DNA of 64,000 bases from Faecalibacterium hattorii (GTDB taxonomy: Bacteria > Bacillota > Clostridia > Oscillospirales > Ruminococcaceae), in contig NZ_PRLC01000016.1 in assembly GCF_003287455.1 (NCBI RefSeq), forward strand, positions 1 to 64,000, given 5' to 3'. Positions 18,253-22,588 of the stretch are shown piece by piece. Both the position numbers and the translations under genes were made by a program. A model generated the notes under the pieces. The model saw only the letters and a program-made list of their open reading frames with translations. It searched no databases and was not told the DNA's origin. Position 1 is the stretch's first letter; every line of letters starts with the position of its first letter.

Positions 18253-18822
18253 TTAATCCTCGTAAGAATCAAGGATTTCCTGTGCAATTTCTGCGCGGTC
18301 GCGGCGGGTATCCATGGCCCGCTTTTCGATCAGGCGGTGGGCGTCGGTTTCCGTCATCCCCTCCCGCTCGATCAGGCAGCACTTGGCGCGGCTGACCAGA
18401 CGCACCTGCGCGATCTTTTCCTGCATTTTGGCGTTTTCCTGCCGCAGACGCAGCAGCCGGTGGTTGCTGGCGGCGGCGATGTGGATGGCCTGTAAAAACA
18501 GGGTGTTGGAAAACGGTTTGCTCAGCAGCAGCACGCCCGCGTCACTCATGGTCCCCAACAGCTGCTCGGCGGCAGCGGCCTTTGCCAAGAGCAGCACGCC
18601 CGCGTCCGTTTTCTCCACGGCGTCCGCGCACAGCTCGTGGCCGAACTCGTCCGGCAGCGGCGCGTTGACCACGATGAGCTCAAAATCGGATTCCAGCATC
18701 CTTCGCCGGGCCTCGGCCCCGCTGGGCACGATCAGAGGCCGGGGATACCCCAGCTCTGCCAGCCGCGCGGAGATGTACTCGTTGGAGCTTGCACCGGCGC
18801 TGACGATCAGAGCACGTCCCAT
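18253..18822 (-). CDS. ANTAR-domain response regulator (RNA antiterminator type)
   Basis: A 189-residue protein. A receiver-like domain (about 1-120) is followed by a coiled-coil helix and a C-terminal ANTAR domain with the usual RAKCCLIEREGMTETDAHRLIEKRAM pattern (split here as LIEREGMTETDAH and RLIEKRAMD). The receiver lacks a clear phospho-acceptor Asp: the expected site reads LIVVNAPLP. ANTAR proteins bind hexaloop hairpins in leader RNAs and prevent termination, and members next to glnA are known from clostridia. It lies 44 nt downstream of glnA on the same strand and is probably in the operon. Confidence 0.85.
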   Translation of the reverse strand: MGRALIVSAGASSNEYISARLAELGYPRPLIVPSGAEARRRMLESDFELIVVNAPLPDEFGHELCADAVEKTDAGVLLLAKAAAAEQLLGTMSDAGVLLLSKPFSNTLFLQAIHIAAASNHRLLRLRQENAKMQEKIAQVRLVSRAKCCLIEREGMTETDAHRLIEKRAMDTRRDRAEIAQEILDSYED

Positions 18823-18866: not shown

Positions 18867-20186
18867 TCAGACGGCGTTGAAGTAATGGATGCGCTCATAC
18901 TCCGCCGGGTCGGCGGCGTTCTTCAGCGCGGCACAGCGCTTGAGTTCCTCCTCATAGTAGCGGTGGGACAGTTCCTCCGGCAGGACGGAGCGCAGAAATT
19001 CGCTTTCCTGCGCAGCCTGAACGGCCTCCTCCAGCGAGGCAGGCAGCATTTCCAGCCCAAGGCCCTCGGCCTCGGCAGGGCGGAACAGGTTCTTGTTCAC
19101 CGGCTCCTGTAAGATCATCCGGTGCTCGATGCCGTCCAGACCGGCGGCAAGGATCAGCCCGATGGCCAGATAGGGATTGCAGGCGGGATCCGGGCTGCGC
19201 AGCTCCATGCGGCAGTTGTCCCCCTTCACCTGCGGGATGCGGACGAGCTGGCTGCGGTTCTGGCGGCTCCAGCTCACATATTTGGGGGCCTCGTCGCTGC
19301 CGAAGCGGAGGTAGCTGTTGGGCAGCGGGTTCGTAAAGACGGTCAGCTCCCGGCTGTGGGCCAGAACGCCCGCCATGAAGCTGCCCGCGATGCTGTCGGG
19401 GGCGATATCGCCCTCAAACAGGTTGCGGCCGTCCATATAAAGGGACAGGTTGATGTGGAGCCCGCTGCCCGCCTGATCGACCAAAGGCTTGGGCAGGAAG
19501 CTGGCGTGGATGCCGCTGCGCATGGCCACAGCCCGGACGATCTGCTTGAACATCATCACATTGTCGGCGGTCTTGAGCGGGCCGGCGTGGTGACAGTCGA
19601 TTTCGTTCTGGCCGTTGCCGCTCTCGTGGTGGCTGTGCTGGGGGCTCATGCCCATCTGCTCCATAGTCAGGCAGATGTCCCGGCGCAGATTCTCGCCCGC
19701 GTCCAGCGGGGCCACGTCGAAGTAGCCGCCAAAGTCGATGGGCACACGGGTCGGGCGGCCGTGGTCATCGTTTTCGAACAGGTAAAACTCGCACTCGGCT
19801 CCCACGTTGCAGGTAAGGCCCAGCTTGCGGAACTTGCGGCTCATCTGGCGCAGAAAGCCCCGGCAGTTGCCGCCGAAGGGGGCGCCGTCCGGCTTCTCCA
19901 CGTCGCAGAAGAACTGCATCACCCGGCCCTCGGTGGGCCGCCACGGCAGGATGGTCACGGTAGACAGGTCGGGCCGGAGGACAAGGTCGCTCTCCTCCAC
20001 CTTCATGAACCCGGCAATGGAGCTGCCGTCGAAGCAGACGCCGTCCTCCAGTGCCTTGGGCAGGTCGCTGGCCAATACGGCGATGTTTTTCTGGGTGCCG
20101 AAGATATCGCAGAACGCAAAGCGGACGAATTTAACGTTGTTGTCCTCCACAAAATCGAGGATGTCCTGTTGGGTCGTATAGCTCAT
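18867..20186 (-). CDS. glnA: Glutamine synthetase, type I
   Basis: A 439-residue class I enzyme without the adenylylation insertion, i.e. of the GSI-alpha type found in Firmicutes. Visible motifs: the DGSSIAGF N-terminal loop near 53, active-site VGAECEFYLFE near 130, GNGQNEID near 193, and the FLPKPLVDQAGSGLHINLS ATP/metal region near 237 (split FLPKPLVDQAG, SGLHINLSL). It condenses glutamate and ammonia. It follows glnN on the same strand, with a terminator and a competing hairpin between them that probably control its expression. The start follows GAGAGGGGAT. Confidence 0.95.
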   Translation of the reverse strand: MSYTTQQDILDFVEDNNVKFVRFAFCDIFGTQKNIAVLASDLPKALEDGVCFDGSSIAGFMKVEESDLVLRPDLSTVTILPWRPTEGRVMQFFCDVEKPDGAPFGGNCRGFLRQMSRKFRKLGLTCNVGAECEFYLFENDDHGRPTRVPIDFGGYFDVAPLDAGENLRRDICLTMEQMGMSPQHSHHESGNGQNEIDCHHAGPLKTADNVMMFKQIVRAVAMRSGIHASFLPKPLVDQAGSGLHINLSLYMDGRNLFEGDIAPDSIAGSFMAGVLAHSRELTVFTNPLPNSYLRFGSDEAPKYVSWSRQNRSQLVRIPQVKGDNCRMELRSPDPACNPYLAIGLILAAGLDGIEHRMILQEPVNKNLFRPAEAEGLGLEMLPASLEEAVQAAQESEFLRSVLPEELSHRYYEEELKRCAALKNAADPAEYERIHYFNAV

Positions 20187-20201: not shown

Positions 20202-20299
20202 AGAAAAACGCCTAAAGGCCTGCCCTCGGAAAAGAGCAGGTCTTTAGGCTGGTGTAAGAAATAGGAAAAGGAGAATGGCTAATAAATTCTACAGCCTAA
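20202..20299 (-). promoter_or_regulatory. Attenuator-like leader of glnA
   Basis: On the minus strand a terminator hairpin is formed by GCCTAAAG (20249-20242) and CTTTAGGC (20217-20210) with an inner CCTGC/GCAGG stem, followed by GTTTTTCTT and, 16 nt on, the glnA ribosome binding site. Upstream, TTAGGCTG (20299-20292) is exactly complementary to CAGCCTAA (20251-20244), which overlaps the 5' arm of the terminator. The two pairings exclude each other. A third option, GGCT with AGCC at 20280-20277, could free the terminator. Confidence 0.65.
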
Positions 20300-20325: not shown

Positions 20326-22413
<2,088 letters not shown>

Positions 22414-22498: not shown

Positions 22499-22544
22499 TA
22501 AACAAAACGGCGCTGCGAGTCAGGAGGTGACCCACAGCGCCGTT
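22499..22544 (-). terminator. Early leader terminator of glnN
   Basis: Minus-strand AACGGCGCTG (22544-22535) pairs perfectly with CAGCGCCGTT (22515-22506), with an inner GGGTCA/TGACTC stem, and runs into TTTTGTTTAAG. It begins about 10 nt after the predicted transcription start, so most transcripts would stop here unless it is opened. Confidence 0.75.
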
Positions 22545-22559
22545 GCTGTCTATGGCATG

Positions 22560-22588
22560 ATTATAGCCCACAGGGGGAAAAAACGCAA
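22560..22588 (-). promoter_or_regulatory. Promoter of glnN
   Basis: Minus-strand TTGCGT (22588-22583) and TATAAT (22565-22560) are spaced by 17 bp. The ~140-nt leader that follows holds the early terminator and a second hairpin at 22483-22458 with a GACGCA hexaloop. Confidence 0.75.

Follow-up and report, generated by a model that had tools for sequence, protein, structure and literature searches.

The spacer between the glutamine synthetase genes glnN and glnA of Faecalibacterium hattorii is best explained as mainly the 3′UTR of glnN, carrying a putative RNA base-pairing seed for which a short partner RNA would serve as a decoy. From sequence evidence, we hold this reading tentatively and with a little less than even confidence. 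The genes were analysed in a window of 64,000 nucleotides, the whole stretch of DNA considered here, in which the minus strand reads glnN, a 139-base spacer, glnA, an ANTAR-domain regulator and pyrG. The following features are referred to throughout:

22560 to 22588, minus strand: glnN promoter candidate TTGCGT-17-TATAAT, directly before the hexaloop hairpin (by eye)
22534 to 22549, minus strand: ACAGC-AACGGC-GCTGT hexaloop hairpin (A1, G4) upstream of glnN (by eye; same type in relatives)
20326 to 22413, minus strand: glnN, type III glutamine synthetase (GSIII), putative parent mRNA (Pfam PF12437, PF18318, PF00120)
20292 to 20299, minus strand: TTAGGCTG, 5′ arm of the alternative (antiterminator) pairing (sequence, shuffles, relatives)
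20251 to 20279, minus strand: G-free 29-nt element GCCATTCTCCTTTTCCTATTTCTTACACC (= GCCAUUCUCCUUUUCCUAUUUCUUACACC), candidate base-pairing seed (cross-genus conservation)
20244 to 20251, minus strand: CAGCCTAA, 3′ arm of the alternative pairing, overlapping the 5′ arm of the terminator (sequence, shuffles, relatives)
20210 to 20249, minus strand: intrinsic terminator hairpin 3′ of the element, GCCTAAAG..CTTTAGGC (sequence, folds)
20205 to 20209, minus strand: T run of the terminator, TTTTT (sequence)
18867 to 20186, minus strand: glnA, type I glutamine synthetase (Pfam PF00120, PF03951)
18253 to 18822, minus strand: ANTAR regulator (PF03861, 51.3 bits), with a weak receiver-domain match below the Pfam cut-off

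A conserved element at the 3′ end of glnN

Between the two arms of the alternative pairing lies a strongly conserved, G-free stretch of 29 nt, GCCAUUCUCCUUUUCCUAUUUCUUACACC (20279–20251, minus strand). Its exact 21-nt core was found once each in 16 of 31 genomes of the genus, always in the glnN–glnA spacer, and a reversed control pattern had no match in the 31 genomes. With three mismatches allowed, the core search returned two further places, both in genome G019, and three further genomes (L021, L023, L024) hold the element with a one-base deletion. The element persists in Faecalibacterium, Gemmiger and Fournierella. When the species-genome collection was scanned with a gapped 20-base pattern, 40 loci were obtained, 26 of them beside glnA (25 with glnN upstream in view) in records titled Faecalibacterium, Gemmiger, Fournierella, Oscillospiraceae and, once, Ruminococcus sp. 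UBA1828; the other 14, which have no glnN or glnA match nearby, were taken as chance. A further 40 loci were retrieved by position from the surroundings of ANTAR genes in other genera; in eight of them, glnN is directly upstream of glnA. The element is exact in two of these (L110, L111) and carries two extra T in two others (L114, L116), at GlnA identities of 53–64% for the four; it is degraded in L115 and was not found in L112, L113 and L144. Viral contigs scanned for the element held none.

The element is predicted to be unpaired, at 0.85–1.0 per base. A conserved, predicted-unpaired candidate seed in the glnN 3′UTR is what would be expected of a base-pairing sRNA derived from a 3′UTR. With regard to a 3′ end at an intrinsic terminator, the T run is present in the window and lacking after the hairpin in 7 of 12 Gemmiger-type loci (counted by eye), where the element is intact. 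In the spacer of G344 (L286), an insert of ~170 bases sits in the loop of the hairpin that follows the element, with arms and element intact. In two Fournierella-type spacers, glnA is set off from the element and its hairpin by a separate promoter-like sequence and a hairpin of the ANTAR type. Because the element is found with hairpins that have no T run, with an insert in the hairpin loop and ahead of a separate promoter-like sequence for glnA, it goes with the 3′ end of glnN and not with glnA attenuation.

The strong terminator in Faecalibacterium and the G-free, unstructured tract would also suit a plain internal terminator that keeps glnA below glnN, combined with a conserved single-stranded site used by a nuclease or a general RNA-binding protein. 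However, the exact conservation over 21–29 nt exceeds, in our judgement, the usual need of such a protein, and with complementary RNAs in Gemmiger and G019 (see below) we regard this explanation as quite improbable. Other candidates were rejected. The Rfam search of the spacer gave nothing above gathering level and, with E up to 10, sub-threshold unrelated families only, so that no known RNA family was recognised. The glutamine riboswitch (glnA RNA motif) is located upstream of glnA and thus shares its position with the spacer, but the spacer lacks an Rfam match to this motif at gathering level or with E up to 10, as the preliminary description had supposed from the sequence when it saw no glutamine riboswitch here. 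A translated leader peptide was discarded by eye on both strands: in relatives, the frame is broken by length changes of 1 and 2 nt, and the plus-strand frame after ATGGC stops at once in some of them.

Competing pairings in the glnA leader

The preliminary description had proposed a regulated attenuator, in which TTAGGCTG (20299–20292) is complementary to CAGCCTAA (20251–20244), CAGCCTAA overlaps the 5′ arm of the intrinsic terminator ahead of glnA, and a third pairing can sequester the antiterminator. The letters, the positions and the overlap are correct, and both sides of the third pairing, GGCT (20296–20293) and AGCC (20280–20277, minus strand), are present, although reduced to GGC/GCC in several relatives (by eye). 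Mutually exclusive terminator and antiterminator pairings exist in this leader. The leader fold beat 200 of 200 shuffles (z −3.64), mostly owing to the terminator, whose hairpin has an internal A/C mismatch; a simple terminator scan missed it, and fold programs find it. The complementarity between the upstream segment (glnN stop to element) and the terminator arm amounted to −13.4 kcal/mol, compared with −7.3 ± 1.7 kcal/mol in 400 dinucleotide shuffles (p about 0.005). When forced, the antiterminator reached −34.1 against −40.3 kcal/mol for the terminator. As the terminator is favoured by ~6 kcal/mol, an outside factor would be needed to favour the antiterminator.

For the relatives, 28 glnA leaders of 30 Faecalibacterium loci (own included) were compared; L030 and L031, with glnA cut or absent, were left out. 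The comparison sample consisted of 13 Gemmiger/Fournierella-type loci with glnN in view, drawn from the 40 loci of the pattern scan over named genomes (L188, with a partial glnN match, was omitted). By the pattern used, the element is present in 19 of the 28 genus leaders and absent from nine. In 17 of the 19, the alternative pairing is in register, with at least five contiguous pairs located 8–13 bases upstream of the element and always formed with the bases after ACAC; L019 and L029 have no arm. L003 carries one mismatch adjoining the contiguous pairs, and L010–L013 retain five pairs only (GGCTG/CAGCC). Taken singly, p was below 0.05 in 9 of the 17 leaders and not significant in the other eight. 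Changes on both sides, from T-A to C-G, were found at the second pair (group L021/L023/L024) and at the seventh (L014 and the same group). These were counted on hand-anchored arms, without repeating the near-identical L007, L008, L011–L013 and L024; a MAFFT alignment shifted two arms by one column. None of the 13 Gemmiger/Fournierella-type leaders has five contiguous pairs with the bases after ACAC at 8–13 bases. The nearest are L151 (four pairs) and L176, which pairs with ACACC itself, and L166 (p 0.027) and L184 (p 0.057) pair at other positions.

Since the arm is kept in Faecalibacterium and absent from the 13 others, the pairing is real in one lineage but does not belong to the conserved core; it is lineage-specific, possibly with a regulatory role. 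As to the covariation that had been suggested as a check on the attenuator, the F. prausnitzii-like genomes keep the exclusive pairings with two double-sided changes and some breaks, and the pairing is absent in other genera. A classic attenuator would require a factor, be it a ligand or a protein such as ANTAR, that recognises the conserved loop and stabilises the antiterminator, so that transcription continues into glnA. The exclusive pairings, their register in 17 of 19 leaders, the double-sided changes and the ANTAR gene directly downstream of glnA agree with such a device, whereas the other genera keep the element where the arm is absent, 7 of 12 Gemmiger-type hairpins lack the T run, the two Fournierella-type spacers place the element ahead of a separate glnA promoter-like sequence, and the leader has no ANTAR hexaloop hairpin. 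Considering also the short pairing in L010–L013, the mismatch in L003 and the eight leaders that are not singly significant, we consider a classic attenuator unlikely.

Complementary RNAs and the proposed seed

A search of 396 family genomes with 24 bases of the element and up to three mismatches gave matches in 15 genomes, versus one for the reversed control. Four of these were Faecalibacterium with the spacer only, six had one chance-like place, and five were Gemmiger genomes with two places. In the latter, 5 of 7 sampled Gemmiger genomes, the spacer is accompanied by a second place of opposite sense, which reads GGTGTAAGAAAC-N-GGAAAGGGAGAATG (with a variant in G382) and has a sortase gene on one side and glmS on the other (domains of both identified in L218). 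It is preceded by a promoter-like TTGCNN-17-TATNCT (6/6, by eye) and followed by a strong terminator, and glmS has its own promoter-like sequence after the partner in four of five Gemmiger genomes (by eye). The sixth Gemmiger genome, G301, holds the partner (L258), and its spacer element is altered (L290). In the seventh, G084, the element is degraded and glmS is not preceded by a partner RNA; beyond the glmS region, this genome was searched with the standard element only. In total, a short promoter-to-terminator RNA bearing the complement is predicted upstream of glmS in six of seven Gemmiger genomes. The duplexes of own pairs in seven genomes (six Gemmiger and G019) ranged from −34.2 to −46.8 kcal/mol, compared with shuffle minima of −26.1 to −32.4 kcal/mol. 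A compensatory change in trans is not supported for G301, whose element pairs no better with its own partner than with the partners of others. The loop region of the partner terminator reads GCCCTTGA in 6/6 (L215–L219, L258), which exceeds the apparent need of a plain terminator.

The 31 genomes of the genus were also scanned for two arms around a free centre, GTGTAAGAN{0,12}GGAAARGG. This pattern recovered the spacer itself in 16 genomes and four non-self matches, against two for the reversed-pattern control (G007, G011). One non-self match lies in G003, in the leader of an acetolactate-synthase-type gene (TPP enzyme domains), and three lie in G019. One of these is in a promoter-to-terminator RNA next to a DUF1622 gene (L049); the other two coincide with ribosome sites, that of a DUF6323 gene (L048) and that of gdhA, encoding glutamate dehydrogenase (L306; ELFV_dehydrog, 303 bits). 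The duplex at gdhA would comprise 11 and 10–12 pairs on either side of a bulge of ~8–9 bases. Against a background of at most ~0.1 per genome, three matches in G019 are unlikely (about 0.005 over 31 genomes, an estimate), and the presence of a nitrogen gene among them is suggestive.

A widespread trans RNA with a near-full complement was not found in Faecalibacterium other than G019. The complement scans also returned poly-G runs and a few places with three mismatches, which were not accepted. With an E-value limit of 0.1, the RNA model R2 of the Gemmiger partner gave 47 matches spread over 24 of the 31 genomes, comprising 16 spacer antisense matches, two known G019 places and 29 others. Of these 29, 18 loci were inspected, together with the 10 best alignments; they were matched mainly by the terminator and reached at best 16–21 of 29 arm positions. 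At L252 (about 1518–1580; G012:C11), a coding gene ends with GCTGTAAGATAACGGAAAAGG, which leads into a terminator whose loop is TTCCCTTGACAAGGAA; its likeness to the Gemmiger partner is loose, partly due to codons and stop, and probably chance.

In the window's own genome, four patterns disclosed no second complement place, and a looser two-arm pattern over 1.39 Mb (half of the genome) returned the element alone. An R2 hit at G000:C43 was rejected as terminator-driven, the other R2 match there being the spacer. Within the 1.33 Mb sampled (half), gdhA was not met, and none of the ORFs flanking the G019 gdhA was matched at over 45% identity. Targets were screened at 865 ORF starts in about 1.19 Mb against 40 shuffled elements. 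At −24 kcal/mol, nine starts besides the antisense of the element were counted versus 3.7 ± 1.6 (maximum 7 of 40 shuffles), and at −20 kcal/mol the counts were 43 versus 30 ± 7 (shuffle maximum 46). At −20 and weaker, the real count was inside the shuffle range, except at −14. The excess is weak because the element has an anti-Shine-Dalgarno block, as the comparison of deoD leaders showed, and much of the target pairing may be of a generic anti-Shine-Dalgarno kind. The duplex most specific to the element was found at a deoD-like gene (L351 position 7572; G000:C43 about 87572, minus strand), whose leader carries GGTAAGAAATA and AAAGGAGA, complementary to the element. Twelve stretches of other genomes were queried, and six held deoD. 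Among the seven deoD leaders (own included), five beat all of 100 shuffles, one ranked 3 and one ranked 27. The part common across genomes is mainly the Shine-Dalgarno AAAGGAGA, and deoD was not counted as a target. Salmonella GlnZ also targets deoD (PMC9731577), an overlap that is possibly a coincidence.

With its own promoter-like sequence and terminator, the Gemmiger partner could also be the acting RNA, and the element its target: a trans-acting small RNA would pair with the glnN–glnA mRNA and thereby affect glnA expression, processing or termination. Were such a duplex to form on the 29-nt loop of F. prausnitzii-like leaders, it would be expected to block the alternative pairing and favour the terminator. 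However, no such small RNA was recognised in the other 15 of 16 exact-core Faecalibacterium genomes, the alternative arm is absent where the partner occurs, and the complement recurs in two leaders of G019, those of gdhA and the DUF6323 gene, so that the element takes the place of a hub. We consider the target reading rather unlikely and prefer the seed reading: one stretch that is complementary to several otherwise unrelated RNAs, and is kept even where its hairpin has no T run, is best read as a base-pairing seed. The existence of these RNAs, their meeting and their regulation are inferred from sequences, conservation, complementarity and promoter- or terminator-like ends.

If the element is such a seed, the RNA would end at the hairpin, by termination in Faecalibacterium and perhaps by processing in Gemmiger, and expose 29 unpaired, pyrimidine-rich nucleotides. 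Through two arms, these would pair with ribosome-binding regions rich in purines, for example at gdhA, and lower target translation while glutamine synthetase mRNA is abundant. In Gemmiger (upstream of glmS) and in G019 (near the DUF1622 gene), the short partner RNA would mimic a target and titrate the seed. An additional effect of the TTAGGCTG/CAGCCTAA pairing, in F. prausnitzii-like species, would be to tune read-through into glnA. A complete two-RNA nitrogen circuit, in which the glnN seed silences glutamate dehydrogenase, a glmS-side decoy titrates the seed and, in F. prausnitzii-like species, the pairing state of the seed in the antiterminator loop also sets glnA read-through, would be an unlikely conjunction.

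Known systems and ANTAR control

GlnZ is described as an enterobacterial small RNA that originates from the glnA 3′UTR and targets sucA (eLife 2022, PMC9731577). The Faecalibacterium element resembles it in the glutamine synthetase mRNA, the conserved 3′UTR seed and the nitrogen-metabolism targets proposed here, and differs in the phylum, the parent gene (the GSIII gene glnN), the candidate target (gdhA instead of sucA) and the extra partner RNA. By analogy, the element may work like GlnZ; it is not a GlnZ member, and no relationship is claimed. If true, a glutamine synthetase mRNA with a second role in base pairing would have emerged separately from enterobacterial GlnZ, and the two ammonium-assimilating enzymes would be linked by RNA, with a readily testable partner RNA. 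To our knowledge, little is known of base-pairing RNAs in the Firmicutes that are abundant in the gut, and among the matches listed from open-licence full-text literature no title describes such a glnN–glnA base-pairing element. Another known system is transcription attenuation by antisense RNA of the pT181 type. F. prausnitzii-like leaders share with it a loop that is complementary to a short RNA and lies between competing arms, but the partner here would be trans-acting, and the F. prausnitzii-like genomes showed none.

The single ANTAR match of the genome is the gene directly 3′ of glnA. ANTAR antitermination (EutV, PMC3369931; PMC3369936; actinobacterial, PMC8164766) likewise involves a regulator in the operon and nitrogen genes, and a terminator overlapped by an alternative pairing (PMC3369931), as in the glnN–glnA leader. 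In contrast to these systems, the 350 nt upstream of glnA hold no A1/G4 hexaloop hairpin (stem of at least 4 pairs, 2 G-C), and a single hairpin occurs upstream of glnN instead. ANTAR control of the glnN–glnA leader is therefore unsupported for stems of at least 4 pairs; known ANTAR target seeds allow 3-pair stems (PMC3369931), and the targets are defined by two hairpins (PMC3369936, PMC3369931).

The hairpin upstream of glnN, ACAGC-AACGGC-GCTGT (22549–22534), overlaps a terminator (22544–22506) and follows right after the promoter-like sequence; the promoter candidate at 22560–22588 is absent from the output of the consensus promoter scan. Hairpins of the CAGC-AARGRY-GCTG type are carried by 10 of 13 glnN leaders of relatives scanned (L110, L111, L113–L116, L136, L145, L146, L148). 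In the window, no second hairpin was recognised upstream of glnN (22588–22506). Judging from its sequence, the hairpin is likely an ANTAR half-site, a single-hairpin ANTAR target at the glnN transcription start is possible, and the region upstream of glnN is the more likely site of action of the ANTAR protein. Among relatives without the element, an ANTAR-type hairpin (GAAC-AAAGGC-GTTC, ACAGC-AAGGGC-GCTGT or near) precedes glnA in L028, L112, L113, L117, L124, L133, L137 and L148, so that the point of ANTAR control may have shifted between the two genes. Finally, an inverted repeat GTCTAT..ATAGAC (22593–22548, minus strand; by eye) flanks the −35/start region of the glnN promoter candidate and is a possible operator.
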